A DNA stretch of 64,000 nucleotides from Phoenix dactylifera (taxonomy: Eukaryota > Streptophyta > Magnoliopsida > Arecales > Arecaceae), in assembly GCF_009389715.1 (NCBI RefSeq), contig NW_024067850.1, forward strand, positions 372,001-436,000, in the 5' to 3' direction. The notes under the pieces are model-generated. The model saw nothing but the letters and a program-made list of their open reading frames with translations, was not told the DNA's origin and did no database searches. Below, one piece after another: positions 11,101 to 49,692 of the stretch; position 1 is the first letter of the stretch, and each line of letters starts with the position of its first letter. The position numbers and the translations under genes were made by a program.

Positions 11101-11414
11101 TATATATGATTTCGAAGCCGAACTCTATCCAATCTTAATTAGAGTCATGCAATTCTTGTCTGCTATATTTTTTTCAAATTTTGTCTATGTAGCAATTTTC
11201 ATTTGCTAAGTTATATAGTTGAGGTATGGTGCAAATAGAATTAAACTACGATGTTGTCCATTTGACCACCATCGGATGGACGATAGGATCACCAAAGGCT
11301 TCTCGGCGTCTCGTTCCATCGGGATCAATGATAAAATATGACAGCGGATCAGAATTTGGACGGTCATCCGTGCTTTGTGAGGTACGTACGGTACGGTACT
11401 AAAGAGAGAGGAGA

Positions 11415-11440
11415 GGGGGGGGGGGGGGGGGGGGGGGGGG
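11415..11440. repeat. Poly(G) tract, about 26 bp
   Basis: Uninterrupted G run following a GA-rich stretch. A likely assembly and replication slippage site; the proline-rich frame on the opposite strand is spurious. Confidence 0.85.
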
Positions 11441-12156
11441 CAAAGAGCACCTACGACGCAAGTGGAACTAGACCGTGAAAAAGGAACGGGAAACAGGAGG
11501 ACGAAGGAAGAGTAGCGGGACCTGCTTCCGCTACGTGTCGCTTCGTCCATACCCGTGTCCGTCGCCAATCCGCGCCCGCATGTCCAATGCTCTCATCTCT
11601 CTACAATTCCACGGTCACTCCTTGCGTTGACCCAATCGGAAATCAGAAGTCCTCGCATAGTAATTCTGTTGTGTTTGTCTTTTTTGGAGAGCAGCTTTAG
11701 TTTAATAAGTTGGGGAGAGGTAGCGGACACTGCCGACTAGCTGGCCAGGAAGGCCGCACATACGGTCCTAAAAAGCCCTTACGGTCCTAAAAAGCTCTTA
11801 GTTTTTTATGGGACTATGTATATCTACATAGAGATAAATAGTATTGTGGACTGAGTGGTCTTCTATGTTGCTTATTACTTCGAAGGATGTTGCAGATTGG
11901 ACGATCTCTTATATAGCTTATTACTTCGGAGGATTTATCTGGAAGAACCATACGTCCGCCCTCTTTTTTTTATTATTTTTTTTAATTTTACATACTGTAC
12001 CTACACTTTTTGTGTTTGAGGCGGCTATGTACCAGAAAAAAAAAAAAAGGAAAAAAGAAAACTCCGGCCTATCCACGCTCCTAATTCCCCTAGCTTTATA
12101 TTTCATTAAAGTCTTCTTATTTTAATACAGATTTAATTAGGAAACCTCGTTACTAG

Positions 12157-12160
<4 letters not shown>

Positions 12161-12194
<34 letters not shown>
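12161..12194. repeat. (CT)n microsatellite in the putative AIL 5' UTR
   Basis: Seventeen CT units about 170 bp upstream of the AP2-gene start codon. CT-rich tracts are common in plant 5' leaders. Confidence 0.85.
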
Positions 12195-12197
<3 letters not shown>

Positions 12198-12361
12198 CTC
12201 GTGGTCTTTTCTTTCTTCCTTCCCGTAACGTCCCTCTCTCTATATTTGTGTCTTCCTTTCCCCGACCCGCTTGCTGCTCTTTTCAACTGATAAGTCTCTT
12301 TCGTTCATTCTTGCCGAGTGTTCTTTATTCCCCGAATAGCCCCCACAGACGAACTACGGAA

Positions 12362-15300
12362 ATGGACGCTTCTCCCAACTGGCTCGCCTTCTCCCTCTCC
12401 CACCAACCCGCTCTCTTCGGAGCCTTCTCCGCCGCCCCTCATCACGGTCAGTCTCTCTTCCCTTCCTCACTTTTGTTCTTTAGTTAAAGGAAATCTCGAA
12501 CAGGCTCTAATGGCGTTTTTCTTTCTCTATTATTTCCCTTTACTTTTGGTTTGGCTGTAGGCGGAAAGGAGAAGATGGAGGAGGGCGGCGGCGGTGCTGG
12601 AGGTGACCAGGCGATGCATCCCGCGGAGGGGCCGAAACTAGAGGACTTTCTCGGCGGTTGTGGAGGCTTTTCCGGAGGTCATGCGGCTGCGGTAGAGACG
12701 GGTGCCAGCGGGGGTTACGACTCCGACCTCAGGAGCATGGCCGCTGGATTCCTGCAGAGTTCCATGACGGAGCGTCCGGATTCATCGGCCTCCATAACGG
12801 CGGCGGTGGCGCCAGACCAGCCAAGGAGGGCGTCGGAGACCTTCGGGCAGAGGACCTCCATCTACCGTGGTGTCACCAAGTAAGTATTACACTGAACGAG
12901 AGTAGAGCACAAGCCCAAGACGGGAAATAAGAAATCTTCTCTCTCTCTCTCCCTCACTCCCTCTCCCGGTCTTGGAATTTGAGGGGTATTTTGAGCAGGC
13001 ATCGGTGGACGGGGAGATACGAGGCGCATCTTTGGGACAACAGCTGCCGCCGGGAGGGGCAGAGCCGCAAAGGCCGCCAAGGTACGCCGCTCCGGCTGAC
13101 TTCAGCTGGCCACACCGGGCTCGGATCCTCGCCGGTGTTTCGTTTGCAGAGTCCACTGACTGAAACGTGCAATGATCTGTCATTCCGTTACCTCCTCGCC
13201 TTCATTCTCATCTCGACCCATCACCGCCGCCACCATCTACTCCTCCACCAATTTCCCGACGTCTTCTACTCCTCATCCTCCACACAGATAGACACGCGCC
13301 ATGTCGTCCTCGCCTCCCACCTTCTGAACTTTTCCGACCTTCATCTTGTGCCGTGGATCTCCAATCTGTGATCAGGCTCCCATTATTTATGTTTATATCC
13401 GGTGACATGATTCCATCTGATCGACGAAAAAAATAGAAGAGAAGAAATTAGCAAACCACACGATTTCCGTCATAACTAAGAAAGCCGTGGAAGAGGGGCC
13501 GGGAAACAATGGAAGGGAGCAACGAGGATAGGGTTATAGTAGGATCGGAAATATAAATATGTATCCGATATAGAAATATATATATTTATATTTATTTTAA
13601 ATAAATATGGATATAAATTAGATACCGAAAATATGGATATTATTTAGATAATTAAATTTTATGATCATAGAATCAAAAATATTACTATAAGTGGATGCTA
13701 AATCATGTTAATAATAAGTTAAGATGGTCATTTTTTTTAAATATATAAAGTTAAATAAAATTATATATTGAATCGGATATTTGAATACAACATGAATAGT
13801 TGTTTATTTATATTTATATTTATTTGTTTTATAATATAAATATAAATATAGATGTTGATATAAATATTAGTTGGATATTCAAATTTTTATTCCATGATCA
13901 CAGCGCGCTTTCTAATTCGAAAAAAAAAAGAAAAAAAACTTGACACGTGGTACGAATCCAGATATGTGTCGGACTCTGAGTTGAAGCACCGAGAGGATCC
14001 GAACGAGGGCCTCCCCTCCAGGACGCGCGGCCTGCGCGCTCCTTGGCTCATACCTACCCTCCATGCGCAACTTAGATTATTTACATCCAATGTTTCTAAC
14101 ATGCGCTTCCCTCATTGTCTCTTTATGCTTTGGCGCCTTCTGATTGGCTTCTGCACGTCTGTTTGCTGTTCGATAGTCTACTTAGGTGAGGCTTTCTTTC
14201 AGTGATTCATTTCATTTTTTTAAAGAAAAAAAGAGAAAAAATATATAAAAACCAGAACCTAATTATTCACTATTTTTTTGAAATGGAAAAAATAGGCGGC
14301 TACGATCAGGAGGAGAAGGCGGCGAGGGCGTACGATTTAGCGGCGCTCAAGTACTGGGGTCCCAATGCCACGACCAACTTCCCGGTGAGTGATGGCACCA
14401 CCTCCGCCTCAAGGGCAAAATGGGATTTTTTGGCTCAAAATACCTCATTGTACTCTTCGTATCGTAGGTGTCTAACTACGAGAAGGAGATGGAAGAGATG
14501 AAGAATAGGACACGTCAGGAGTTCGTGGCATCCCTCAGAAGGTGTCCTCTTCACGTGACAGTCGCGCATTGCATGCACGTATATATGTAGTGTTGACGTT
14601 GGGTTTCTATCTCATTTTATCTTCATGTGTTAATTTACAGGAAGAGTAGTGGGTTCTCTAGAGGAGCCTCCATATATAGAGGAGTCACTAGGTTAGTCGA
14701 ATTATCTTTTTTCTTAAGTGGATTGGAATTTATAAATCCTGTTAAATTTAAGTGCTATGTTGATTAAGTTATATTTTCTTGCTTGCATGGAGAATACTTC
14801 AGACACCACCAGCATGGCCGATGGCAGGCAAGAATTGGGAGAATAGCTGGAAATAAAGATCTATATTTAGGAACTTTTAGTAAGTGTCTAAACTTTGAAC
14901 TATTTCGTTATGAGTTACACCAGCATTTTGGCTTATTAACTCAATTGTATTGGATATTTTTCTTTTTTCTTTTTTATTTTGCTGCGTCTCTCTTTCGTTT
15001 TCTTCTAAATGAAAGTGAATGGGCTCTGTTTAATCTGAAAGAAACGAAAAGAAAAAGAAAAGAAAAACATTTGTAACGGATGGTTTGATTATTATTAGGT
15101 ACACAAGAGGAAGCTGCAGAGGCTTATGACGTTGCGGCAATCAAGCTCCGGGGGCTCAATGCGGTGACAAACTTCGACATGAGTCGCTATGACGTTGAGA
15201 GCATCCTGAACAGCGACCTCCCCATTGGTGGGGTATCTAACAGGACCTTCCAGACCTCGGATTCATCATCGGCATCCTCGGAATCCAATGCCAGGCATCA

Positions 15301-22294: not shown

Positions 22295-22349
22295 CACTAC
22301 AAGAAAATACACTTTCAGCGACCACTTTCGGCGACTCCATGAATCGTGG

Positions 22350-22770
22350 TCGCGGCAAATAAGGCTATTTGCGACCAACATCCTTATTAGTTACTGAATG
22401 GTTATCCTACACCGACGAAATGGATATTTGGTCGCGGAAAAGCAAAACCAAGTTGGCGGGGTGGAGGTAAACGTTTGGCGACTAACGTTTCGTCGCGGAT
22501 AATAAGGCTATCTGCGACCACCATCCTTGTTAGTTACGGAATAATTATCCTACACCGACGAACTGCATATTTGGTCGCGGAAAAGCAAAACCAAGTTGGC
22601 GGGTGGCGGTAAAACTTTGGGCGACTAACGTTTGGTCACGGAAAAGAAGGCTATCGGCGACTAACATCCTTGTTAGTGACGGAATAAATATCCTACACCG
22701 ACGAAATGCATATTTAGTCGCGGAAAAGCAATACTAAGTTGGCACGAGTCCAATATTTCGCGCGGGCTGG
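22350..22770. repeat. CACTA subterminal tandem repeats, 143-bp period
   Basis: CCTACACCGACGAA followed by ATATTTGGTCGCGGAAAAGC occurs at 22406, 22549 and 22692, exactly 143 bp apart, with a decayed further copy at about 23150-23300. The units carry several GGCGACTAA/GTCGCGG words in both orientations. In CACTA elements such subterminal arrays are transposase-binding sites. Confidence 0.8.
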
Positions 22771-23492
22771 AGGAAAAACTAACGATGTTGTGCTAGCCCC
22801 TGTAAAATGCTAATTTCTAAGTTCAAAAAAAGAAAAAACTACTTATTTTCAAATGGTGCCATTTGACATCTTAATTCACTTAGGAATGCATATTCTTGTC
22901 TCTTCGGCTAAATCTCAATCCCACAACTTTTCTTCATACTTAAATTCTTTTTTTTATTATTATTATAATATAATTTTAAAAGCTCGAGCTCGATGCTTGA
23001 CTCCTTATCAAATAAATATATGGATCGACAGGATACGCGACATGAGGACGTGGCAGGAACGAAAATTCGCTTAAAAATATATAGAATTTTTGGACATCCT
23101 ACGGGCAGGATCGAAAATCCGCTCCGAAATAAATTTGCACGCATCCTTTTTAGTTACTGAATGATTGTTTTACATCAATTAAATGCATATTTGATCGTAG
23201 AAAATCAAAATCAAGTTGGCGCGAGTCCAGTATTTCGCGCGGGCTGGAGGTAAAAGTTTTAGCGACTAAATTTTGGTTCCTAAAGGTTCATATGTAGCGA
23301 CTAAACCAATTTAGTCGCGAAAAGTATGAATGCAGGGAAACCAAATAAAAAAAAACCTAATTCCCTATTTTTCTCCTTTTCACCCGCACGTCGCCTTCAT
23401 CCCGCCTTCACCCCGCCTTCACCCTTTCGCCCGTTCGGTCATCCCTTCGGCGTCGGCGTCCCAAGGTACGTTCTCTTCTCGATTTTAATTTA

Positions 23493-28500: not shown

Positions 28501-29251
28501 TTGAACCCTTGAGAAACCTGCATTTTTCTACAGCGCAGAAGCCAGCAGCAGCGTGCTTAATAACGAAAAAGAAGAAGAGAAGGAATACTCTGCCGAGAGC
28601 AGGCTGCATTGAATATTGTGCAGCCTTCAATGGCAGAATGCCATCAAACAAGATAATCACGTATCAAAAAAATACAAAAAAAAAATAATCCACAAACACA
28701 TCATATCATACTGATGGCCATCTATCTTCTAATCTTTTAATAGCAGCCATCCATCGAGGGTTGTACAATACTCGACAGTGCATGGGGCATACGGTAGAGC
28801 ATCTGAATCGGTGGGATTAATATCAAAATACTCGTCTTCAAAACAAATGGTCCAGGCACCCACTTACGTAAAACTGAACCGATTTCTGGAGACTAGGCAC
28901 CGCACAAACAAGTGACTTCCGGAAGAAGTTTTTCACGTACGTAGAATTTGTTCTGCCATTTTTCACACAAAGAATGATCAACCCGCGAGCACACTGTTAT
29001 CTGCCATGGAGAAACTCCTGAACCCGTTCGTGCCTTGTTACTACAAGCATTCAAGTACAAGCCATAGCAGGAAAGAAAATAGCTGCCAAATACTCTTAGG
29101 TTGAATTTGGCTTAAAAGAACCAGAAGCAATATGGAACATGCACAAATATAGAGATCATTTATATTTACAGAGTATTTCATAAGAAGGGTTTACTGGTAA
29201 CCAAAGAGGAAATAAAGTATTTGCATTCCTCCAAAAACTGGAGTGACCAAT
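28501..29251. other. Gap between the LINE and the DUF1644 gene
   Basis: No coding signal. The part next to 29251 should hold the 3' UTR of the DUF1644 gene, transcribed leftward. Confidence 0.45.
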
Positions 29252-29523
29252 ATGGGTGCCTAAGAGTCCTGGAAACGAGATCTGCGCCGGCGGTAGCTGC
29301 AACATAATATTAAATAAACATCAGCCATGCAATCAGGATTTGAGAAAAAGAAAACTAACAATGCATATATAATTCTAATCAAAACCTATGGGTGCCTAAG
29401 AGTCCTGGAAACGAGATCTGCGCCGGCGGTAGCTGCAACATAATATTAAATAAACATCAGCCATGCAATCAGGATTTGAGAAAAAGAAAACTAACAATGC
29501 ATATATAATTCTAATCAAAACCT
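29252..29523. repeat. Tandem duplication of 136 bp carrying the DUF1644 terminal exon
   Basis: The segment starting GGGTGCCTAAGAGTCCTGG at 29252-29387 is repeated almost exactly at 29388-29523. Each copy holds, on the minus strand, an acceptor (GTTGCAG), the 37-nt terminal coding exon and the TAG stop. Confidence 0.9.
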
Positions 29524-30794
29524 ATACATACAAGTTTATACCAACTACCAGAGTAAATTTACCAGCAATTAGACCAATAATTTCTGTTCATGACTCAAGC
29601 CTCTGGAAGCAGGGTAAATGACCAAAACATCCCTTACATAAAGAAGGTTGTCAAAAAAAAAAAATCTTTCCAAAAATCATGTAAACTTTTGCAACACGTA
29701 AATGGAACATCAATATAAGAATCTTGTAAATATGCTGATTTACAAGGATATACAAATGCATGACAAATTATTCCAATCAATTTCAGCAGATTATTAAATA
29801 TTTAACTGCATATGGTACCTGTTAAACTATGAATAGATTGTTAAAAAATATATTAACAGAAGATCAAGGAATTTCAATACAACCTGCGACCATAAGCTCT
29901 TTCCCTAGATGTTACACCAACTGCTCCCCCAAAGTCGTCATCGGAGTCGTCAAAATGATATTCTAAATTGTCTGCTGATGATATAGAAGCATCATCCATG
30001 CTTGAAACATCATAGTTTGATCTATGGTGATTTCTTCTTGTCTCACTTGCTCTTGATCTCCGTCGGTTTCTTGAAGTCCGGAAATTATCAAATACATGAT
30101 AAAGGATACAAGAAGCCCACCAATTGCCATCATCCCCAGGGAAATCTTCATACTCATGACCACCAGCATCCCCATACTCAATAACATAGTCCCCCAATAC
30201 CACTCCATGTGGTATTTCCGAGTCAATGGTACTCAAGACATCTATAATTTCAGAAGAGTGCTGGAGATTTTCCCAATCTAGTTGTTGTGCTGGGTCTATC
30301 TCTGATGGCCTTGCATGGGGGTGTTCTTGTTTGGCATGCAGTTGCAGTTCCATATAGTTGCCAACATATGAACATTGTTTTTCTTGACAGCATCGTTTCT
30401 TCGTGTCCAGATATGCACGGGCTTCATCAATGACAATCCACCCTGTCACCTCTCCTCTACACAAGGGGCAGATTGGACAGCTGCCAGTTTCAGATGGACT
30501 GGCTCGAACGTTCACTGCAGATGTCCCAGTCACAGTAGAAGAAACCTTTGTATCAGCAGGCAGTCCATATGCACTTTTGAACCGGTCAAGACAGTTTGAG
30601 TGGGTATGATCTGTATCACACATGAATGGTCTACACCCTTTATCACATGAAGAGCACTGTAGTAGCACTCCATTGTGAGGAAAATCCAAACAGATGGGAC
30701 AAATCACATCTTCCCAATTGATATTCAACCGTTTGTCCGGTAAGTCCAAAGAGCTGGACTCAATCACACTTTTGTGAGAGAAACCTGAAGCCAT
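29396..30794 (-). CDS. DUF1644-family zinc-binding protein
   Basis: Main coding exon 30794-29884 (911 nt), spliced in phase to a 37-nt terminal exon at 29432-29396; an identical terminal exon lies at 29296-29260. The product is 315 aa. NWEDVICPICLDFPHNGVLL at residues 26-45, then CSSCDKGCRPFMCD, SNCLDRF and a second Cys cluster, CPICPLCRGEV, about 70 residues later, are the hallmarks of the plant DUF1644 family. EHPHARPSEIDP and VVLGDYVIE also fit that family. The Cys/His pattern suggests zinc binding, RING-like in looks. The tail is acidic (DDSDDDFGG) and ends in an Arg-rich peptide (SYRRRRSRFQDS). Family members have been linked to stress responses, but the molecular role is not settled. 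The start Met at 30794 is the first in frame, and an AG acceptor at 30842 lies just upstream, implying a spliced 5' UTR. Confidence 0.88.
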
Positions 30795-36660: not shown

Positions 36661-36952
36661 CCTACTATTGGGGGAATAAGATTTTTCCCCCCCAAGTGAC
36701 ACAAATGCCCCCAAGAAGCCGCACAATCGCCGACCCTGAACAGACTGAAGTCGGCGTCCGACCTCGGAACGCCCGACCTCAAGACATCCGACCTCGAGAC
36801 TTCCGACCTAGGAAAATTCTGACGCTCAAGGTCTACCCTTGTCAGCCACCTACTACGGCCGTACTCCTCCGAGGTCCAACTGAGGACCATGCCCTGCCAC
36901 TGCTTCAGCATTTATTGCGCATGGCCGCTGTAACCCTCCGGTCCACTCTACA

Positions 36953-37080
36953 ATTAATGTGGATCTCCGGCTTACTCCACCATTAATGCGGATCTCCGGC
37001 TTACTCCACCATTAATGCGGATCTCCGGCTTACTCCACCATTAATGCGGATCTCCGGCTTACTCCACAATTAATACGCAT
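36953..37080. repeat. 29-bp tandem repeat in the LTR U3
   Basis: ATTAATGCGGATCTCCGGCT plus TACTCCACC repeats about four times, upstream of the LTR TATA box, and likewise at about 48966-49095 in the 3' LTR. Its position suits repeated enhancer elements. Confidence 0.85.
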
Positions 37081-37342
37081 GGCTCCTGACATCTACGGAT
37101 CCTCGGCTCTCCACGGCAAGTTAGCCCAGCAGATTCTGGTCAACCATGATAAGTCTCTGATCTCGGCCATACCTCCGACACCAATGCAATGATTCGCCTG
37201 GTAACGTACTGGTTCGGGTTGTACGACGCCCTCGCCGCCGACATCAGCACAATGACTCGCCTGACCATGCGCCGACCTGAGCCACATGCCGAGCCGTACT
37301 ATGGCCTCGCCCTGTTACATCACAGGTAAACCGACCCCCACC

Positions 37343-37350
37343 TATAAAAG
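37343..37350 (+). promoter_or_regulatory. TATA box of the 5' LTR
   Basis: CCTATAAAAGGGAG lies about 330 bp before the LTR end, a suitable place for starting the genomic RNA. The copy in the 3' LTR is at 49354-49360. Confidence 0.7.
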
Positions 37351-37676
37351 GGAGCCTTAGCTTCTCAGGGGGGGAGGAAATTCCGCGCCTTACAAGCACT
37401 GTTCATCTCCTCCTTACACTATCTGCCCCCTCCCTCACTTGAGCGCCGGAGGGCCGGCGCCGGAAAACCCGGCCACCGGCTTGTCTGCAGGCACCCAGAC
37501 GGAGGATGCCGCCCGCTGACGGATTGCTGCCCCGCCGTGAGGATCCCCAGCTCCCTCTCTCCGGCCACCCCAGACGAAGGACGCCGCCCGCCGACTGGTC
37601 GCCGCCCCGCCGTGGTGACCCGCAGCTCCCTCTCCCTCGACCGAAGATTGCCCCCGGGTCCAATTTCCAGCAACAG

Positions 37677-37694
37677 TTGGCGCTAGAGGAAGGG
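37677..37694 (+). other. Putative primer-binding site
   Basis: TTGGCGCTAGAGGAAGGG begins 1 nt after the 5' LTR, where the minus-strand primer tRNA should pair. I cannot assign the tRNA from memory. Confidence 0.6.
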
Positions 37695-37708
37695 CCCGAG
37701 TAGCAGTC

Positions 37709-39250
37709 ATGAAGTTGAGAAGTAAGGGAGCCTCTAACATCTCCCGGCGTCCCCCGCAAAGCCCTGGACACTCTGTCCAGAATTCTCCAACTCCGGCTGA
37801 CCCAGCTCCTCAGATCCAGCCGGAACAGTTCGACGCCCTGGTACAGCAAGTCCAGGCCCTGGCCGCCGCCGTTCAGGGTCTGCGGCGCGAGGAAGCCTTA
37901 CCTACGCTCCCCCCACGGGCCCAGGCCCCGCCGGAGTGTCTGCCCAACGGCCCGGTTTTCCCAAGCCAAAACTTGCATGGCTCCTCCAGAGCCAACAACG
38001 GAGAACGAGCTTCTCCCTGAAGGGAGTTACCGGGAGAAGGTTTCGACCGGAGGCCCCAACTTTCTGAGGCAGAGTCAGCCCCAGACCACCGTGAGCCGGC
38101 GCAAACCACAGCGACAATCCCACGGATGGGGGAGCTCGACCGGAAAGTTGAGTACCTGGAGCGCCAGATTGCGGCGCTCCACAGCAAGAAGGCAAGACAA
38201 GAGGGAGACTTTGAGTTCACTACCAAGTCCCCCTTTTCCCTCCAGATCGAAGATGAGCCGGTTCCCGCGAGGTTCAAAATGCCTCAAGTGGAACCCTACA
38301 GCGGGACGACTGACCCTCTCGACCACCTGGAGAGCTATCGGGCCCTCATGGCCCTACAAGGGTCCTCGGAGGCCATACTTTGCAAGGCCTTCCCAGCAAC
38401 CCTCCGAGGGACCGCTCGGCTTTGGTTTTCGGGACTGAAGCCGAATACGGTGTCCTCTTTTGAGCAACTCGGCAGGCAGTTCGCTACCAACTTCGCTGCC
38501 AGCCGGTACCAGCGACGGACATCAGACTCCCTCCTCGACATCAAACAGAAAGAGGGGGAGTCCCTCAAGGAGTACCTGGATCGCTTCACCGCCGCTACAT
38601 GGGAGGTTCGCGAGCTAGACTAGTCGATAGCCATGTCGGCTCTGAAGACTGGGGTTCGCTCCTACCGATTCCTCTTCTCCATAGAGAAGAGCTTCCCGGC
38701 CGACTTCACCGAAATGTTGGCCCGAGCCCGGAAGTATGCCAAGGCCGAGGAGGCAGTTGCCTCTAGGCGGGGAGCAATCGAGCCCGCCTCTAAGAAGCAG
38801 AAGAAGCGCCGCGAGGAGCGCGGCCAACAGAGGAGCCGATCCCCTCGCCATGAGAAGAATCTCCCCAGACTGAGGGGCCCGCCCCGTCAGCAGGGGCGAC
38901 CTCAGCAGAGGACCCCTCCTCGACCGAGGTCCCCACCGCGGCCTCGGACGTACCCGAGAAAGTACGAGAACTATACACCCGTCAACGCCCCCCGGGCCGA
39001 GATCCTGATGGAAATTGAGGGTCGGGACTTCTTCCGACCCCCGCCGCCTATGCGAGACACGGGATTTCCCCGTAATCCCAGGAAGTACTGTCGCTTCCAC
39101 CGAGACCGCGGGCACGACACGGAGGACTGCTTCCAGCTCCGAGACGAGATAGAAGCACTCATCCGTCGAGGAGTACTCAACCGGTTCGTGAGAAACCGGC
39201 GCGAGGAAAGGAGGCCGGCGGAATATGTCGTACCAACCGAAAATCCGGAC
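37709..39250 (+). pseudogene. Ty3/gypsy gag (interrupted)
   Basis: One reading frame from ATG 37709, broken by TGA at 38018-38020 and TAG at 38621-38623 but otherwise continuous. After a Pro/Gln-rich start and a coiled-coil helix (MGELDRKVEYLERQIAAL) comes the capsid-like retrotransposon gag domain: VEPYSGTTDPLDHLESYRAL, TARLWFSGL and SLKEYLDRFTAA. Next are a basic Arg/Pro-rich segment and CRFHRDRGHDTEDC, the short nucleic-acid-binding motif of this lineage. The structural protein would form the particle; the two stops disable it here. Confidence 0.85.
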
Positions 39251-39359
39251 GACAACATGCCCATTGCCGGCACCATCAACATGATTGGAAGGGCCTCGGC
39301 AGGAGCAGCCGCCCCGGGAGCACCCCCGAAACGCCCACGCACTGATGAAGTCATCTCGT

Positions 39360-39781
39360 TCTCGGACGAGAACTTAGAAGGGGTCGAGACCCCTCACGAT
39401 GACGCTGTGGTCATCTCAATGATTGTAAATAAGTTCAATGTAAAGCGTGTCCTAGTTGACAATGGAAGCTCAGCCAACATTTTGTATTATCATGCCTACC
39501 AAAAAATGGGGTTGACAGAAGGACATCTCCGGAGGATCAACGCCCCACTGGTCGGGTTCACCGGAGATTCGGTCCCGGTCGAAGGTGAGACCAGCTTCCT
39601 TGTCACAGTTGGCCTCGCCCCCCGGGAAAGCACTGTGAGGACGGACTTCCTGGTGGTCCGACTGCCCTCGGTCTACAACGCCATCCTTGGGCGGCCAGGG
39701 CTGAATGCCCTTCGAGCCGTAGTTTCAACCCACCATCTGCTCATGCGGTTCCCCACCGGCCAAGGAGTAGGCGAGGTCTGA
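39360..39781 (+). pseudogene. Ty3/gypsy aspartic protease region
   Basis: Continues the gag frame. RVLVDNGSSANIL holds the active-site Asp in the D-x-G-S-S form common in plant gypsy elements, followed by the beta-rich FLVTVGL and YNAILGRPGLNALRAV. It ends at TGA 39779-39781, with reverse-transcriptase text resuming in the same frame. The stop may be a mutation or a boundary. Confidence 0.8.
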
Positions 39782-41480
39782 GGAGACCAGCTGGTCGCCA
39801 AGCAATGCTACACGGCGGCCCACGGAGTAAAGCAACCGACCGAGGCGACAATCCAGCCAACGGGCCCTTCATTGCCCATAGAAACCCTCGATGCGAGGGA
39901 CACCCTCTGGAAGAAGCAAGTAGAGCCCGGTGAGCTTCTTGTTCAAGTTCCACTAAAAGAAAATTTTTTCGAGCTAACCGTGCAGGTCGGCTCCGGCCTC
40001 GACGCCCGCGAGAGGGATCACCTTGTCAGCTTCCTGCGGGACAATGCTGACGTCTTCGCCTGGTCGCCTGCGGACGTGCCGGGAATTGACCCTGAGGTCA
40101 CGGTTCACCGACTCCAGGTGAGGCCAACCAGCAGGCCTGTAAAGCAGAAGAAAAGGGGCTCCGCCCCGGAGCGGCAACGTGCTGCGGCCGAGGAGGTGGA
40201 CAAACTCCCTGAAGCCGGCTTCATCCGGGAGGTCTCCTACCCGGACTGGCTCGCCAACGTAGTCCTCGTAAAGAAGGCCAACGGAAAATGGCGTATGTGC
40301 GTGGACTACACCGACCTGAACAAGGCCTGCCCGAAAGACAGCTTTCCCCTTCCAAGCATCGACCAGCTCGTTGACTCTACTTCAGGGCACCAACTGCTAA
40401 CTTTTATGGACGCCTTTTCAGGGTACAATCAAATCCGAATGGCGCCAGAAGATGAGGAGAAGACGGCCTTCATCACCGACAAGGGCACCTACTGCTACAA
40501 GGTGATGCCCTTTGGCCTAAAAAACGCTGGGGCCACCTATCAGAGACTGGTCAGCCAAATTTTCAAAGACCAGATCGGCCGAAATATGGAAGTCTACGTG
40601 GACGACATGCTGCTGAAAAGCCGAGCGGCAGAACACCACATAGCCGATCTCGACGAGACATTCGCCAAGCTCAGAAGATACAAAATGAAGCTCAACCCGG
40701 CGAAATGTGCGTTCGGGGTCACCTCGGGCAAGTTCCTGGGTTTCATAGTGACCCAGCGCGGAATTGAAGCCAACCCGGAGAAAATCCGGGCACTGCAAGA
40801 GATGTCGCCTCCGAAGACAGTTAAGGAGGTGCAGCGGCTCGCAGGGCGAGTTGCCGCCTTGGGAAGGTTCGTCTCTCGGTCAGCCGAGCGCTGCCTCCCT
40901 TTCTTCAAAAGCCTCAAACGGCCGAAAGACTTTCGGTGGTCAGAAGAATGCCAGCGAGCCTTTGAAGAGCTCCGGAGCCTTCTGGCCTCTCCCCCGCTGC
41001 TCACCAAGCCCCAGAAGGGCGAGGTTCTTTATCTATACCTGGCCGTCTCCCCGGCCGCAGTGAGCTCAGTCCTCGTCCGGAAGAGGACAAGCTCCAAAAG
41101 CCGGTCTATTACACCAGCCGGGTTCTCAGGGATGCTGAGACCCGATATTCTAAACTTGAGAAGACCATCTTCGCTCTCATCATCTCGGCTCGGAGACTCA
41201 GGCCTTACTTCCAAGCCCACACAATAGCTATATTGACCGACCAGCCTATGAAGCAAATATTGCAAAGGTCGGATCGTGTGGGGAGGATCGCCAAATGGGC
41301 GGTTGAGCTCGGGGAATTTGACCTCGAGTATCGGCCCAGGCCGGCTATCAAGGCCCAAATACTCGCCGACTTCATCGTGGAGTGTACCCTGCCGGACGAC
41401 CCCGAGTTGCCACCCGTATCCGCGGAGGAAGCCCCGAGGCAACCATGGGTCCTGCACTCGGACGGGTCTTCAACCTCGGG
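39782..41480 (+). pseudogene. Ty3/gypsy reverse transcriptase and RNase H
   Basis: Same frame as gag-protease. It reads RMCVDYTDLNKACPKDSFPL, AFSGYNQIRM, MPFGLKNAGATYQRL and YVDDMLLKS, with the catalytic Asp pair kept. The thumb/connection follows, then the gypsy RNase H (FEELRSLLASPPLL, YLYLAVS). Near 41080 one base is missing from the expected frame, so the end of this RNase H (ETRYSKLEKT, IAILTDQPMKQIL) is read in another frame up to about 41400. The frameshift would stop translation at 41225-41227. Confidence 0.88.
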
Positions 41481-43156
41481 GGGGTAGTGGAGCCGGACTC
41501 ATCCTCACCAGTCCAGACGGAGTGGTGGCCGAGCAAGCCTTGCGCCTCAAGTTTCCGGCTTCGAACAACGAGGCCGAGTATGAGGCCCTCATCGCCGGGC
41601 TCAAGCTGGCGAAAGAACTGAAAGTGGAAGACCTGACGGCCTTCAGCGACTCCCAGCTGGTAGTGAACCAGATTCAAGGAGACTTTGAAGCTAAAGAGCC
41701 ATCCATGCAAAAGTATCTCCAAAAGGTGCGGGATCTTACGTCTGCCCTGAATTCTTTCAGTATTCAGTACATTCCCAGGGCGGAAAACTTCAGGGCAGAC
41801 CAGCTGTCCAAATTGGCAACCTCCCGCATGAGCGAGCTTCCCAAGGGAACAACGCTCGAGTATCTTCAGATCCCCAGCACGGAAGAACCCGAGCCCACCA
41901 TGTGCATCGACTCCGAGCCAAGCTGGATCGATGGGCTCGTCTGCTATCTCCAAGACGGGACCTTACCTCATGACGAGACGGAGGCTCGCCGAATCAAGCG
42001 CCAAGCCCCCCGGTATGTCCTGTACGAGAATAGACTTTATCGTCGATCATTCACTTCTCCCCTTCTCAGATGCCTCCGCCCCTCCGAGGCGGACTATGCC
42101 CTCCGAGAGGTCCATGAAGGGATCTACGAAAATCACATGGGGAGTCGGGCACTGGCCCACAAGATCCTGCGGCAAGGATATTACTGGCCCACACTCCAGA
42201 AGGATGCGACGGATTTCGTCCGGAAATGCGATCGGTGCCAGCGAAACGCCAATATCCAGCGCCGACCTTCGGCCCCGCTGACTTCTATCATCGCCCCCTG
42301 GCCGTTTGCCCAATGGGGGATCGACATCCTGGGGCCCTTTCCCCAAGCCTCCGGACAAAGGAAGTTCCTGGTCGTCTCCATCGACTACTTCACCAAATGG
42401 GTCGAGGCCGAACCCGTCGCCCGGATCACCGAGCAAAAGATGCGGGACTTCGTGTGGAAGTCCATAATCTGCAGATTCGGACTACCCCGTATCCTTATAT
42501 CCGACAATGGTCGACAATTTGACAATGTTCATTTAAGGAAATTTTGCTCTGAGCTCGGCATTGATCACCGTTTCACCTCGGTCGCTCACCCCCAGACAAA
42601 CGGGGAAACTGAGGTAACCAATCGCACTATTTTGCAGGGACTCAAGGCTAGGCTTGATCGGTCCAAAGGACAGTGGGTCGAGGACTTGTACAATGTCCTT
42701 TGGGCGTACCGGACCACGTTCCGACTGCCCACAGGAGAGACCCCCTTCAACCTAGCATACGGCACTGAGGCCGTCATCCCGTTGGAGATCGGCCTGCCTT
42801 CTCCAAGGGTGGAGCATTATGACCCCGACACCAATTCCTCCCAGCTCAGGAGCAACTTGGACCTCGTCGAAGAGACACGAGAGGTCGCCCGGGTCCGCAT
42901 GGCAAGATACCAACAGCGAACGGCCCAATACTACAACTCCAGAGTCAAGCCCAAGCTCTTCAAAGTAGGGGACCTTGTCCTCAGAAGAGCCGAGGCTTCT
43001 CAACCAACCGAGCAAGGAAAGCTCGCCCCAAATTGGGAAGGGCCGTATCAAATCGCCCGGGTGCAACGACCAGGGGTGTATAAATTAAAGTCTCTAGAGG
43101 GGACCCTGATCCCGCGAAGCTGGAACTCCGAGAATCTACGAATGTACTACCAGTAA
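41447..43156 (+). pseudogene. Second (archaeal-type) RNase H and integrase
   Basis: After a frame change in the G run at about 41478-41486 one frame stays open to the stop at 43156. First comes the extra RNase H typical of Tat elements: LHSDGSS, NNEAEYEALIAGL, AFSDSQLVVNQI and RADQLSKLA. The integrase follows with its zinc-binding H-H-C-C region (HEGIYENHMG, KCDRCQ), the core with Asp in WGIDILGP, Asp in LISDNGRQF and Glu in NGETEVTN, and a C-terminal GPYQI..VQRPGVYKL segment. The catalytic triad is present. It is a fragment only because of the upstream breaks. Confidence 0.88.
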
Positions 43157-43380
43157 AACCCCTAGGGGTTCAAGACAATCAGGACAATGGGCTCAGTTCC
43201 TTTTCTGCAAATGATTCTCTTATCTTGACGACTGTAATTCTCTTCTAATGTTGGGCCGTCTGTGATCCCCAGATTCCCCGGCCAAAATCGGGATGCCTCG
43301 AGACTCGACCGTAGAGTTCCAAACTCCCTCGACCTCGAGAAGTATCGCAGGACGATGAAACATCAGCTTGACGCAAGGAT

Positions 43381-44220
43381 CCCTCGACTAAGGTCGGGAT
43401 GCCCCGAGGGTCGACCGTAGAGAACCAGACTCCCTCGACCTCGGGAAGAAGCCGTGAGGGGTGGAAAGGGTGGCTCCACCCGGGGCGCCACAAAGTGGAC
43501 CCCCGGGAGCGGTCGACGATCCCCGATCCCCGAAGCGGACAATACTTTCCCTCGACTAAGGTCGGGATGCCCCGAGGGTCGACCGTAGAGAACCAGACTC
43601 CCTCGACCTCGGGAAGAAGCCGTGAGGGGTGGAAAGGGTGGCTCCACCCGGGGCGCCACAAAGTGGACCCCCGGGAGCGGTCGACGATCCCCGATCCCCG
43701 AAGCGGACAATACTTTCCCTCGACTAAGGTCGGGATGCCCCGAGGGTCGACCGTAGAGAACCAGACTCCCTCGACCTCGGGAAGAAGCTGTGAGGGGTGG
43801 AAAGGGTGGCTCCACCCGGGGCGCCACAAAGTGGACCCCCGGGAGCGGTCGACGATCTCCGATCCCCGAAGCGGACAATACTTTCCCTCGACTAAGGTCG
43901 GGATGCCCCGAGGGTCGACCGTAGAGAACCAGACTCCCTCGACCTCGGGAAGAAGCCGTGAGGGGTGAAAAGGGTGGTTCCACCCGGGGCGCCACAAAGT
44001 GGACCCCCGGGAGCGGTCGACGATCTCCGATCCCCGAAGCGGACAATACTTTCCCTCGACTAAGGTCGGGATGCCCCGAGGGTCGACCGTAGAGAACCAG
44101 ACTCCCTCGACCTCGGAAAGAAGCCGTGAGGGGTGGAAAGGGTGGTTCCACCCGGGGCGCCACAAAGTGGACCCCTGGGAGCGGTCGACGATCCCCGACC
44201 CCCGAAGCGGACAATACTTT
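43381..44220. repeat. 168-bp tandem repeat array, five copies
   Basis: The unit beginning CCCTCGACTAAGGTCGGG starts at 43381, 43549, 43717, 43885 and 44053. Copies differ at a few bases only, and diverged partial units flank the array (43270-43380 and 44290-44370). Because 168 is a multiple of 3 and the unit has few stops, long repetitive open frames appear on both strands. They lack any sign of being genes. The array lies just after the integrase. Confidence 0.95.
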
Positions 44221-44370
44221 CTGAAGCAGAGCTCTGCCATTGAACTAGCGCGCGCCCTACTTCGGTAGAACGCCCACAGGCCCGCTGACCTGACACAAGA
44301 CTCCTCGCCTAAGGTTGAGGCGCCCCGGGGTCCGACCAGAGGGTCTCAAGCTCCCTCGGCCTCGAAAAGA

Positions 44371-45400
44371 ACTGTAGATCGATAAAGCCTCCCCAGATCC
44401 TCTCAACTTCGGTGGGTGTCGTCGGGTCCGTGAGAAGCCCGAGCCCCCTCACAAGTCAAAATGACTCCGGAGGACGACGAGGAAGGGAAGCAACCTACCC
44501 CGCCATGTGAAACACAACTCCGAGAATGCAAGAGGTACCTCCAACTCGATGCCCTCCTTGTCAAATTTTATCTACATACCGCTAATCATCTAACGTTGGA
44601 GTCCTATCTCGCCCCAAAGTCGGGCTACTCCAATGGGTCGGCTTAAGACCGATCTCCTAACTACATTATGCATACTCCGTTCGCCCCCAAAATCAAGTCT
44701 CAACTTGAACAAAGTCTCCGTAAGTTAGGGCCCAACTCGGCCCCCATACATAGACTCCGATGTCTAACTGAGAAAGCGGTCCCGGCTGCAAGTGCACCAG
44801 CCGAACACAGATACTAAGGCGATCTTCAGAGATTCCAGCCTTACTCACTGAAATCTCGGCAGAGTCCGAGAGCGATAACTATGAAAACCTTCGGCGATAA
44901 TTCGACTATTAGCCCGCGCTCCCTACAAAGGACCCGAAAGTCAAGTTCGGAAACCCGACTAGACTCCCCCGAATAGCTGCACGAACAGACCTAGCCCGGT
45001 CCTACTCGAAGGGCTAAGGCCCGACCTCAATGCCTTGGATTTTCCTAAAGGCCGAACGTGACGACTTTCAAGATCCGAGTTATAGGACTTAGAAAAATTT
45101 CTGGAAACCTAAGCTCGGAGCTCCCTTTGCTCGGAATGACTAAGATCCGAGAAGGCTAAGGTATAACTCGGGAAAAGGGCAACTTCGTTAAGTGGCCCGA
45201 GAACTAAAATACAGAGTTAGAGGTCGTCGAGGCGGTTAGCTAAGACCCTAGCCTCATTCACGACAAGAAAGGGAAAGACGAGCACAAAATGACAAAAGTA
45301 TTTTTCATTGACAAAGGGCCGAAAGGCCAATTACAAAATTGGAGGTCGGCCATTCAAGAGCCGACCTCGGATACAGTGAAAAAGAAAAAATACGCCAAGT
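44371..45400. other. Non-coding spacer of the Ty3/gypsy element
   Basis: GC-rich DNA with no convincing frame, full of CCGAC/CTCGG words. It separates the tandem array from the 3' end of the antisense gene. Confidence 0.5.
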
Positions 45401-45401
45401 C

Positions 45402-45662
45402 TTAAGCGGCGGCAGTAACATCCGCGGGGTCGTCCGTGGCGATGGCCTCAAGACCTTCAGCCGGCACAGGCTCGGGGTCTTCTCCAACTGGCTTAGCACT
45501 TCCCAGATCATGCCATCCCCCTTTCCGTTTCAAGTCAGCACCTTTCTTTCTCCCTGACTTGTCTTGCCCACGCTTCTTTAGCATCTCTATCAGGGAAGGA
45601 TCCATCTTCTCCGCCTGTGCCTCCACAATCTCGCCCGCTGACATGAAAAAATACGCCAAGCC
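45402..45662 (-). pseudogene. Duplicated C-terminal segment of the antisense gene
   Basis: In the same frame directly after the antisense gene's TAA, 86 more codons read MSAGEIVEAQAEKMDPSLIE, a Lys/Arg-rich part, and then a near copy of the gene's own ending (EDPEPVPAEGLEAIATDD versus PDPEPVPAEDPEVITVPDD), again followed by TAA and CTTGGCGTATTTTTTC. A tandem duplication placed a second stop-bearing end on the gene. It may be an older C-terminus. Confidence 0.6.
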
Positions 45663-47776
45663 TTAAGCGGCGGCAGCTACATCCGGGGGATCGTCTGGCA
45701 CTGTGATGACCTCGGGATCTTCAGCCGGCACAGGCTCGGGGTCGGGGGCAGGTGCCGCCTCCGGGACGTCGACCGTCTCAGCCGCCGGTGCCGCCTCCGG
45801 GACACCCTCCGTCTCGGCCGCCCTCGTCGAAGGCTCGGCGGGATCTTGTTCGTACAATCCTGCCTCGGATGTCAAAATGGCAGGAAGGTCTTCCATGTCG
45901 GACCCGTAGCCCGCGTCCATCCTTGGGCGGACCGTCGAAAAGTGGTACTGGGGGCAGTACCGGGTCACCTGCAGCCGGAAGTTCTCGAAACTCCGGAGAA
46001 ACCCGTCGACCGTCTCCTCCTCTAACATGTCGCAGAACTCCTGCGACCCCTTGAAGAGCTCCACGGCATGATCAGCTCGCTCGAGTGCCCTCCTCTCTCG
46101 GGCCTCGAGCTGCTCGATTCGGAGGCGGGAAACCCCGTCCTCATACTTGAGGCCCGCAACCTCGGATTGGACCTCCCCCAGGCGCGCCTCCGAGGCGCGC
46201 AAGGCCGACCTGGTTAGGGCGTGAGCGGCCTTCTCCTCCTTGAGCCCCTCCGCCATAGCGAGGCGCTCGGCCTCGGTGGCCGCCCTCCGAGCCTCGGCCT
46301 CGGCCAACGCCGCCTCCAGCTCGGCGATCCTTTTCTTGGCCGGTTCCAACTCCCGGCAGACCCGCCGGGTCTCTTCCTGGCATCCCTGGGCGATGAACAC
46401 CAGGGTGTCGAGCTCGTGAACATGCTGCAAAGAAAGAGGCAAAATGATCATGAGTTAAAAACATACGGATTCACTAACAACTTTAAGGAAATCGAAAAAA
46501 GGACTTACCCGGGCGGTGTTGCAGAAAGCACTGTCAGCGACCACTTCCAGCGGAATGTTCCGGAACTCGGCCCGGTCCGCTGGAAGCATTGCACGCCGAA
46601 GCACGGAGCGTGCGACCTCGGCGTTATGAATGGCCGAGCTCCCCTCGAGAATAGGGGAGTCCGGCTCGACTGACTCCTCCCGGGAAGCTCGGGAAGGGCC
46701 CGGCATGCCCGAGCCCGAGGTCCCGGAGCCGCTCGCTTCGGGGCCTCGAGTCGGCTCAGGTCCCGGGCGCTGCTGCCGGATCGTGGACGGCTCCCCCCGC
46801 TGGGCAATGGGGGCAGGGCAAGGAGGGGCTGATGGGCCCACGTGGCTGACGACCCGTGCCCGCCTCGGGTCGGCTGTGGAGACCCCCGCCTCGGGGCCAC
46901 TCGTCCCGGCCGACGTCGAGGCGTCGTCTGATCTTGCCCTTTTCCGAGGCTGAGGCATAGTTCCGCCGGCCTCGGCCTCTCGCCTCCTCAGGCGGGAAAA
47001 AAGCGATGTGTTGCTGGTCGGCATGAGGGGAATGTCTGAACAAAAAATTTTACTAAGTGTCAGACCAGTAGCAGTGAAAACAAAGGACAAGAAAAGAAAG
47101 TAATATAACTACCCTTACCCTCGGGGCGCGCCGAGCTCAGACCCACGCTCGCCAGGGCGCCCTCCCGCAGGAGCTCGGTCAGGTTGTTGCCCCTCCCGAG
47201 GGCTCGCAGAGAGTCTAGGGTCCTCAGCTCCCTCCCCGACGGTTCGGAGAGCCTGTTGAGGGCCTTCAACCGAGGGTGTCCCCACCTCGGGTCGAACCCC
47301 CAAGGCGCCTCGGACGCCAGGAAGAAAAACTTCCCCTTCCACTCATGAATCGAGGAAGGGGCGCCTTGGAAGAGTGACATACCGCCCCGAAAGGCAAAGT
47401 ATAGCCACCCTGCATCCGCCGGGTTCTTCTTCAACAGAAAACACCGGCAGAAAAGACCCACTGAGATCGGGATCCCGTGCCCGAGGCACAGGGACAAGAA
47501 CCCGATTATTGTCCTCCACGAGTTCGGAGCCAACTGCGCCGGGACGAGCTGGTACTCGGCCAGCAGGTTGTTCACGAACTCGTGAACGGGAAACCGCAGA
47601 CCAGCCCAGAGTGTCTCGCGGTAGACCGCGATCCGACCTGGGGGCGGCTGCGTCACCCTGTCCTCCGGCCCCGCGGTTTCAAGGCGAAACCCGGGCCGGA
47701 AGAAGAAGCGGGAGCGGATCAACTCCAGCTCCTCCTCTGACAGGCTGGACCCTACCTCCTCCGGACCAAGACCCAT
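45663..47776 (-). CDS. Antisense three-exon gene inside the retrotransposon ('putative gypsy type transposon' family plus coiled coil)
   Basis: Exons 47776-47119 (658 nt), 47035-46509 (527 nt) and 46424-45663 (762 nt) join in phase through GT-AG introns of 83 and 84 bp and give 648 aa. Exon 1 (VHEFVNNLLAEYQLVPAQLA, NSWRTIIGFLSLC, GWLYFAFRGG, FQGAPSSIHEWKGKFFFLAS, PWGF) matches the plant family annotated as 'putative gypsy type transposon' as I recall it. Exon 2 is Ser/Pro/Arg-rich with a basic patch (PRKRARS) that could be a nuclear signal. Exon 3 is a long Ala/Glu-rich coiled coil (RRVCRELEPAKKRIAELEAA) with an acidic Pro-rich end. A TATA box lies about 215 bp upstream. Extra ORFs, including antisense ones, are known in Tat elements; their role is unknown. 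Unlike gag-pol, this frame shows no break. Confidence 0.78.
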
Positions 47777-47990
47777 TTTACAAGAGCGAAGTGAAATCGA
47801 AAACAGAGAATGAAAACTGGGGAAGGAGAAGGAAGGAGAACCCTAGCAGTTGCAGGGTAGGAACCTACTAGACATTGCCGGAAATCGCTCCGGGCACCGA
47901 CGGCGAGGTTCGGTTGAAGAAGGAAGCAAGGGAGAAAGACAACAAAAATAAGAGGCAGCCAAATAAAACCTTTAGGGCAACCTCAAGGGG

Positions 47991-47996
47991 TTTATA
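47991..47996 (-). promoter_or_regulatory. TATA box of the antisense gene
   Basis: GATATAAACCCC on the minus strand, about 215 bp upstream of the antisense ATG at 47776, with no other TATA-like site between them that I could see. Confidence 0.55.
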
Positions 47997-47999
47997 TCG

Positions 48000-48666
48000 A
48001 CCCCCTTGGCGGTCCAGATCAGCAGGGTCGGTTTCCATCCCCCGATCGGATTGCGCCACGTGTTGACCTCGGAGACCGAGGCACCGTATTCACTCCGGAT
48101 CAATAAATCGGGTACGAAATCGAAGCCCTGTCCCATCGGATCTTGGGGCCTCATTATGGGTCCGCAGAATCGAATCGCCTTGAACAACGAACGGACGGCA
48201 CCTCCGCTCCCCTCGTTTAATAAGGCCCTGGGGCACGTGGAGCCCCGACGTAGCCTTCACCTCGCCGGATCCATGATCCAGTAATACGAGATCGGAAGCG
48301 TCCGATCCTAGGTCATGCCGCGTGTCCGTTTTGAACCCCGTAACGGCACGCTCATTGATGAGCGGAGAATTCCGATTACGGGATCGAGGCGTCGCCTCGT
48401 CGAGCCCAAGGACCCTCATCATGAGTCCGCCGCACGAAGCGATCTTGGCGATCCAAGAGACGCCACCCCCGCTACACCCGCTCCGAGAAACGTAAAGACA
48501 CGAGCTCCACCATAAGTTCGCTGAATAAAGCAACCTCGAAACGCCCAAGGGCGCGGGTCTCACCATAAACACTCCGAGAAATACGAGGGCGCAGACGAGA
48601 TTCGCCCCCCAACTTTGATGATAGACTTTACTTCCCACGTCCGAGCCCGCAAGCCGCTCGAACTCG
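48000..48666. other. Non-coding 3' region of the Ty3/gypsy element
   Basis: Between the antisense promoter and the purine tract. It has no supported gene; an open minus-strand frame running from here into the LTR is rejected. Confidence 0.5.
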
Positions 48667-48680
48667 GAAGTCGGGGGTAG
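48667..48680 (+). other. Polypurine tract
   Basis: GAAGTCGGGGGTAG, nearly all purine, directly before the 3' LTR, where plus-strand synthesis should be primed. Confidence 0.65.
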
Positions 48681-49687
48681 TGTTGGGGGAATAAGATTTT
48701 TCCCCCCCAAGTGACACAAATGCCCCCAAGAAGCCGCACAATCGCCGACCCTGAACAGACTGAAGTCGGCGTCCGACCTCGGAACGCCCGACCTCAAGAC
48801 ATCCGACCTCGAGACTTCCGACCTAGAAAAATCCTGACGCTCAAGGTCTACCCTTGTCAGCCACCTACTACGGCCGTACTCCTCCGAGGTCCAACTGAGG
48901 ACCATGCCCTGCCACTGCTTCAGCATTTATTGCGCATGGCCGCTGTAACCCTCCGGTCCACTCTACAATTAATGTGGATCTCCGGCTTACTCCACCATTA
49001 ATGCGGATCTCCGGCTTACTCCACCATTAATGCGGATCTCCGGCTTACTCCACCATTAATGCGGATCTCCGGCTTACTCCACAATTAATGCGCATGGCTC
49101 CTGACATCTACGGATCCTCGGCTCTCTACGGCAAGTTAGCCCAGCAGAGTCTGGTCAACCATGATCTCTGATCTCGGCCATACCTCCGACACCAATGCAA
49201 TGATTCGCCTGGTAACGTACTGGTTCGGGTCGTACGACGCCCTCGCCGCCGACATCAGCACAATGACTCGCCTGACCATGCGCCGACCTGAGCCACATGC
49301 CGAGCCGTACTATGGCCTCGCCCTGTTACATCACAGGTAAACCGACCCCCACCTATAAAAGGGAGCCTTAGCTTCTCAGGGGGGAAGGAAATTCCGCGCC
49401 TTACAAGCACTGTTTCATCTCCTCCTTACACTATCTGCCCCCTCCCTGACTTGAGCGCCGGAGGGCCGGTGCCGGAAAACCCGGCCACCGGCTTGTCTGC
49501 AGGCACCCAGACGGAGGACGCCGCCCGCTGACGGATTGCTACCCCGCCGTGAGGATCCCCAGCTCCCTCTCTCCGGCCACCCCAGACGAAGGACGCCACC
49601 CGCCGACTGGTCGCCGCCCCGCCGTGGTGACCCGCAGCTCCCTCTCCCTCAACCGAAGATTGCGCCCGGGTCCAATTTCCAGCAACA
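48681..49687 (+). repeat. 3' long terminal repeat
   Basis: Starts TGTTGGGGG and ends CAGCAACA, with the inverted TGTTG/CAACA ends intact. Followed by CCTAC. It carries the same TATA box (49354) and 29-bp repeats as the 5' copy. Confidence 0.95.
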
Positions 49688-49692
49688 CCTAC

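Follow-up and report, generated by a model that had tools for sequence, protein, structure and literature searches.

The antisense gene described here very probably belongs to a Retand-lineage LTR retrotransposon as an accessory gene that is spliced, encodes a protein and has been kept under selection. It lies in a 64,000-nt stretch of date palm DNA (the window), on the minus strand, opposite gag-pol and between pol and the 3′ LTR. Exon 1 (47119..47776, 658 nt) begins with the ATG, encodes a PF04195 domain (residues 52-116) and ends in phase 1 after residue 219. Intron 1 (47036..47118, 83 nt, GTAAGG...TTCAG, phase 1) is followed by exon 2 (46509..47035, 527 nt), which carries the basic patch PRKRAR about 30 residues in and then a Ser/Pro-rich stretch, and intron 2 (46425..46508, 84 nt, GTAAGT...TTTGCAG, phase 0) by exon 3 (45663..46424, 762 nt with the stop), which is charged, Ala/Glu-rich and terminated by TAA. 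All three exons and both introns are read from the minus strand. The joined exons form an unbroken frame of 648 codons plus TAA, and the model put forward in the preliminary description, three minus-strand exons linked in phase through GT-AG introns of 83 and 84 bp, was confirmed. Each intron is 67% A+T, against 31-36% for the exons; a high A+T content is usual in plant introns. An in-frame stop at 47845 precedes the ATG, and the TATAAA box reported upstream of it is present on the minus strand (47991..47996), its first base 220 nt 5′ of the ATG, as a candidate core promoter. A stop-free frame of this length is beyond chance, since mononucleotide shuffles of the exon sequence contained on average 15.9 stops per 648 codons and were stop-free in 0 of 2000 cases, and in each of the remaining five frames the joined exons are interrupted by 9 to 17 stops. 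About 180 nt downstream of the gene, at 45402-45479, the last 81 nt of the coding sequence recur at 82% identity; a second piece of the coding sequence end was seen in 25 of 40 scored genomic copies, and the repeat may reflect duplication of the 3′ end or serve as an alternative one.

The element carrying the gene spans 36666-49687 and is delimited by paired plus-strand LTRs, a 5′ LTR of 1,010 bp (36666..37675) and a 3′ LTR of 1,007 bp (48681..49687), with the target duplication CCTAC on either side (36661-36665 and 49688-49692). With 14 mismatches in 1009 columns, the two LTRs are 98.1% identical, which indicates a young insertion. At 36666 the 5′ LTR starts with TA, where the 3′ LTR starts with TG, a point change at the element end. 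The plus-strand gag-pol (38126..43156) encodes in a single frame gag, reverse transcriptase, RNase H, a second RNase H of the RVT_3 type, and integrase; in the profile search, the domain order in pol was RVT_1, PF17919, PF13456, rve. The frame runs from 38021 to the stop at 43154-43156 and is interrupted by stops at 38621 and 39779 and by two frameshifts. Further stops at 41225-41249 fall inside a segment bounded by two gag-pol frameshifts and are not separate lesions, because none is left there when the majority columns of 15 copies are used. Of the damage first ascribed to the polyprotein, the two frameshifts are thus real, but the stops number two rather than three.

The position of the second RNase H, between RNase H and integrase, is that of the aRH of the Tat clade, PF13456 being presumably its mark; this domain order is also that of Ogre and hence common to both lineages. 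The antisense PF04195 ORF in the pol-3′ LTR interval is the feature by which Retand is recognized. The LTRs (~1,010 bp), internal region (11,005 bp) and pol-3′ LTR region (5,524 bp) all fall inside the Retand ranges of 315-1,194, 7,380-12,869 and 2,933-6,566 bp, respectively (Vicient 2025, PMC11963269). Assignment to Ogre was considered and rejected: gag-pro and pol share one frame here with no separating intron, and the stops of the window are absent from the other copies covering them (38621 in 0/13, 39779 in 0/14). On its sequence, the element is very probably a member of the Retand lineage, Tat clade, Ty3/gypsy.

Pol is separated from the antisense gene by a tandem repeat array of five 168-bp units (43380..44221, plus strand). 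Long ORFs on both strands at 43245-44240 (331, 283 and 189 aa) overlap this array and are probably a by-product of it, since the 168-bp period is a multiple of three. Beyond the element, the window contains tandem repeats at 22349-23255 and 29251-29522, with units of 143 and 136 bp, and a host gene-like minus-strand ORF with a DUF1644 domain (29874-30794, E 3.5e-65).

Conservation of the splice sites among copies had been set beforehand as a test of the gene model. A DNA search of the date palm's own genome (773 Mb) gave 1555 candidates, 40 of which were scored; eight of these were left out, and the close-copy set comprises 32 sequences, the window and 31 others. Two copies (L009 and L010) were dropped as duplicates of the window and of L011. 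The close copies form subfamilies at ~98, 96, 92-93, 88-89 and 82% identity to the window. The splice sites proved nearly invariant among them: intron 1 has GT in 31/32 (one GC) and AG in 32/32, and intron 2 has GT in 31/32 (one TT) and AG in 32/32. Letters identical to the window make up 246 of 248 cells at the splice dinucleotides versus 3948 of 4433 (89%) in the intron interiors. The TATAAA and the ATG are each present in all 32 copies. Intron lengths range from 80 to 86 nt (intron 1) and from 81 to 96 nt (intron 2), and exon 1 measures 658 nt in 28/32 copies and exon 2 527 nt in 27/32. A search with the intron-2 donor pattern, allowing up to three mismatches, matched 58 genomic places, 55 of which keep the GT, a count favoured by the pattern's own GT. 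Two patterns of window letters spanning the exon-exon junctions, again with up to three mismatches, gave 0 and 0 matches genome-wide; as such patterns reach close relatives only, the lack of intronless copies says little and neither proves nor disproves splicing. Where ten-kb stretches around copies were inspected, 17 of 20 contained a pol match (all but L013, L028 and L029), and in 17/17 pol lies on the strand opposite to the antisense gene.

Across 45663-47880, the window's own subfamily, A, proved to be mosaic. Over 47760-46561 it differs by 1-5% from subfamily B and by 9-38% from subfamily C; over exon 3 the distances are 5-15% from B and 3-8% from C. The pol of the one C copy retrieved (L030) is also near that of A, with a dS of 0.05 versus 0.19 for A-B. 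This pattern fits recombination between elements.

The gene structure extends well beyond the close copies. Of 3465 candidate places for PF04195 in the same genome, 150 were scored, and all 150 exceeded the family's cut-off. Twenty distant loci were examined, the 8 best and 12 picked for long or short open frames, which is not a random sample. All 20 align with the antisense protein from residue 1-24 on, at 31-74% identity by segment. Spliced protein-to-DNA alignment gave introns after residue 219 (intron 1, phase 1) in 17/20 loci and after residue 395 (intron 2, phase 0) in 16/20, with both introns common to 16/20. Lifting the GT-AG requirement left the intron lengths unchanged in 15/17 loci for intron 1 and 15/16 for intron 2; both introns of L005 and the second intron of L043 were seen only without this requirement. 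The alignments of L002 and L053 cover the first part only. Intron 1 measures 66 to 128 nt in the distant loci, and past it a conserved block continues in frame up to a basic patch. This patch, [PL]-[RK]-K-[KR] (PKKKAK/PRKKAR type), was found in 16/16 loci with a delimitable exon 2; exon 2 is stop-free in 8 of the 16 loci read. Exactly two introns were predicted in L004, L007, L042, L045 and L046 and none in L002, and additional GT-AG 'introns' at scattered residues appeared in 14/20 loci. The latter are tentatively read as frame breaks and length differences, several of them resembling a broken frame or an in-frame change of length. At the 5′ end, L001 has no ATG at the aligned start position. 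Where 700 bp of upstream sequence was at hand, 7 of 8 distant loci have a TATA[AT]A between -178 and -282 (six of them TATAAA; L005 has none), and so do 5 of the 12 having ~200 bp upstream, all as raw counts uncorrected for chance.

These distant loci bear on the question of origin. Introns and a TATA box of its own make the gene resemble a host gene, and transduction of host genes by retrotransposons is a known process (PMC7264820), so that it might have been captured recently by one element rather than belonging to the lineage from of old. The alignment of all 20 sampled PF04195 loci from residue 1-24, the presence of both introns in 16 of them and the 150 places out of 150 scored in which the domain passes its cut-off speak against this reading, which is highly improbable; capture, if it happened, would on this evidence be old.

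The preliminary description had inferred selection from the observation that the antisense gene is better preserved than the polyprotein. This argument did not survive a count of lesions, made over ~4.575 kb of the polyprotein gene, starting at 38582 in gag, and ~1.956 kb of exon sequence from the antisense gene. In the 15 copies having both regions, gag-pol contains 16 stops and the antisense exons 5 (P = 0.64); in 13 copies, the frameshifts number 14 and 6 (P = 1.0). The two gap-rich copies L014 and L023 were excluded from the frameshift test, and including them gives 41 versus 12. For the window alone, the 4 gag-pol lesions against 0 in the antisense gene give P = 0.32. Breaks are thus about equally frequent in both regions, and preservation of single copies was rejected as a sign of selection. 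Since the contrast between intact and broken frames in the window may be chance, the case for selection has to be made from dN/dS and the introns.

By the same token, the open frame in the window could be a chance survivor that has not yet decayed after a recent insertion. The LTR identity agrees with this, as do the similar rates at which gag-pol and the antisense gene decay and the 16 of 32 close copies with no frame break in their aligned part (among them L028 and L029, which are aligned in part, and L040, which has the GC donor). Chance survival fits the window copy, but the between-subfamily dN/dS and the conserved introns of the family require selection in the transposing lineages, and as an account of the gene it is very improbable. 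As a statement about the window copy, it is compatible with a spliced accessory gene under selection.

Codon-level comparison carries this case. Nei-Gojobori dN/dS of the antisense frame between subfamilies is 0.30 (A-B), 0.24 (A-C), 0.21 (B-C), 0.36 (A-D) and 0.33 (C-D), every upper 95% bound being below 0.5; the selection originally suspected is therefore upheld by values of 0.21-0.36, which are not near 1. A shift of the frame by one or two positions brings the value to 1.06-1.83, and the reverse frames give 0.88-2.13 with the exception of the mirror frame (0.33-0.40). The low value of the mirror frame is expected, since it has its third positions in common with the real frame. Codon-position bias was accordingly rejected as proof on its own, the mirror frame having it too; the decision between the two comes from the stops in the mirror frame on the sense strand, of which the window has 9 and every copy 5 or more. 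Exon 1 is the most strongly constrained of the three (0.11-0.22), followed by exon 3 (0.23-0.40), and constraint is weakest in exon 2 (0.32-0.50 in four comparisons and 0.77 [0.32-1.70] for A-B). Between groups of the same copies, dN/dS is 0.10-0.26 for pol, 0.15-0.48 for gag-pro and 0.27-0.39 for the antisense gene; pol is under more constraint than the antisense gene. Comparisons inside subfamilies yield 0.31-0.49 for the antisense gene and, for subfamily A, 0.32 for pol and 0.45 for gag-pro, as expected where selected lineages are mixed with insertions left to decay. For the family as a whole, these substitution patterns demonstrate purifying selection on the predicted antisense protein.

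The same data weigh on the idea that the antisense RNA matters rather than a protein, by pairing with the genomic RNA over its 3′ part and tuning silencing or translation. Overlap with the sense genomic RNA is built into the antisense arrangement, and an RNA role is named as an option in PMC7264820, according to which RNA and protein roles can coexist. However, a pure RNA role predicts neither the constraint on codons (dN/dS 0.21-0.36, against about 1 or more in four of the five other frames) nor exon lengths that keep the frame, and here exons 1 and 2 mostly do so while intron lengths drift. It is accordingly disfavoured, and improbable as the main function.

The predicted protein combines several recognizable parts. 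The domain first described as 'putative gypsy type transposon'-like was matched by the profile search as PF04195 (Transposase_28/TRP28) at residues 52-116 (E 9.2e-14; 51.9 bits versus a curated cut-off of 26.2), and the middle of the protein is indeed basic and Ser/Pro-rich. The basic patch after intron 1 resembles a classical nuclear localisation signal. The long coiled coil proposed for the remainder fared less clearly: exon 3 gave weak matches to SMC models, but all are below the curated cut-offs, and a coiled coil is possible there. Residues 415-511 matched a bacterial Pfam family weakly, likewise below its curated cut-off. An AlphaFold2 model of exon 1, built from 17 sequences, reached a mean pLDDT of 59.9 and had no fold match at E <= 0.001 among viral or PDB structures, and a profile search of PDB sequences returned a single match at E 0.44. 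As the exon-1 model is poor and has no fold match, the fold lends no support to a molecular function. A profile search (A1) found no confirmed relative in viral contigs or prokaryote genome contigs, which is expected for a gene from a plant.

Taken together, the antisense accessory gene would be an RNA polymerase II gene of conventional build, driven by a TATA promoter of its own and split by two spliceosomal introns; it would be transcribed from the integrated element and spliced by the host. The full-length sense RNA would hold the complement of the introns only and so be unspliceable there, and the introns would be inherited at each transposition. Antisense orientation would thus explain how introns can persist in a retrotransposon, as the reverse-transcribed genomic RNA would keep them unspliced. 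The product would probably be a nuclear protein composed of the TRP28 domain, the NLS-like patch, a Ser/Pro linker and a possible coiled coil. It may act on the DNA, the RNA or the integration complex of the element, as has been proposed for Grande gene 23 and for TRP28 proteins. A nuclear regulatory role has roughly even odds, the leading options being regulation of element transcription and assistance to the integration complex.

A broader reading, which is tentative and rather doubtful, is that antisense orientation enables a retrotransposon to retain, over the long term, a regulatory gene that is spliced and has a promoter, that its introns are both fossil and useful, and that many of the antisense ORFs listed so far are its exons. 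If the introns are a fossil, the gene would have been taken from host DNA in reverse orientation and not from an mRNA. If they are useful, splicing would aid export and shield the mRNA from the silencing of intronless repeats; the first idea draws on splicing-dependent export (PMC12786077) and the second on the silencing of intronless mobile elements in animals (PMC8770142). Under this reading, many separately listed TRP28, Smc and short antisense ORFs of plant elements would be exons of one gene. Two surveys of extra genes in plant retrotransposons (PMC6317226, PMC11963269) looked for unbroken ORFs, of at least 250 codons or at least 600 bp, and a gene split by conserved introns would be fragmented by them, with its ends listed as separate ORFs. 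A spliced gene model would instead provide the full protein, a testable transcript and the rule that introns are tolerated on the antisense strand only. The gene's domain scores in at least 150 places of the genome, and among clusters of Retand elements with recent activity, 97% are reported to have antisense TRP28 ORFs (PMC11963269).

The class of antisense gene is not new, as antisense TRP28 ORFs are a known mark of Retand (PMC11963269), and the same survey bears out the earlier remark that extra ORFs in Tat elements are known as a class. Its unit was the contiguous ORF of at least 600 bp, of which 104 were antisense, in 63 clusters; DNA binding is predicted there for TRP28, and antisense Smc-like ORFs are also catalogued. 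The Retand TRP28 ORFs of that survey share with the present gene the antisense orientation, the site between pol and the 3′ LTR, PF04195, a long pol-3′ LTR region and tandem arrays. The difference is that here a single predicted two-intron gene takes in TRP28, the basic patch and exon 3 as its exons. The word 'intron' is absent from the main text of PMC11963269, and 'exon' and 'spliced' occur in its references only. Neumann 2019 (PMC6317226) considered extra ORFs of at least 250 codons and found Transposase_28 in 23% of Retand elements; in its available text an intron is mentioned for the Ogre gag-pol alone. Vicient and Casacuberta 2020 (PMC7264820) called for antisense and spliced transcripts to be examined. 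Intron structure of such genes is not described in the available texts of PMC11963269, PMC7264820, PMC12786077, PMC6317226, PMC11728184, PMC3091746 and PMC5408684, nor did introns in antisense genes of this kind appear in the titles and abstract openings searched, a search that lay mostly outside the subscription literature. The two-intron structure of the antisense TRP28 gene therefore appears to be new, the gene class being already known.

Among individual elements, the antisense ORFs of RIRE2, Retand (Silene) and PvRetro13 have the same position and orientation as the present gene, Retand ORF4 containing Transposase_28 and PvRetro13 ORF2 an SMC domain; no intron structure is described for them in the accessible text of PMC7264820. 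Gene 23 of maize Grande is likewise antisense and 3′ of pol, and a promoter of its own and a nuclear product have been reported for it (PMC7264820). In Ogre, an intron separates gag-pro from pol on the sense strand (PMC6317226), and EVADE produces subgenomic RNAs through alternative splicing (PMC12786077), whereas the introns described here are antisense. Ogre and EVADE nonetheless resemble the present element as plant LTR elements that use splicing, here by prediction. Outside plants, the HBZ mRNA of HTLV-1 is spliced. HBZ, named in PMC11963269, is a nuclear protein from the antisense gene of a retroelement and, as an analogy only and with no kinship in sequence expected, parallels the predicted product of the date palm gene.
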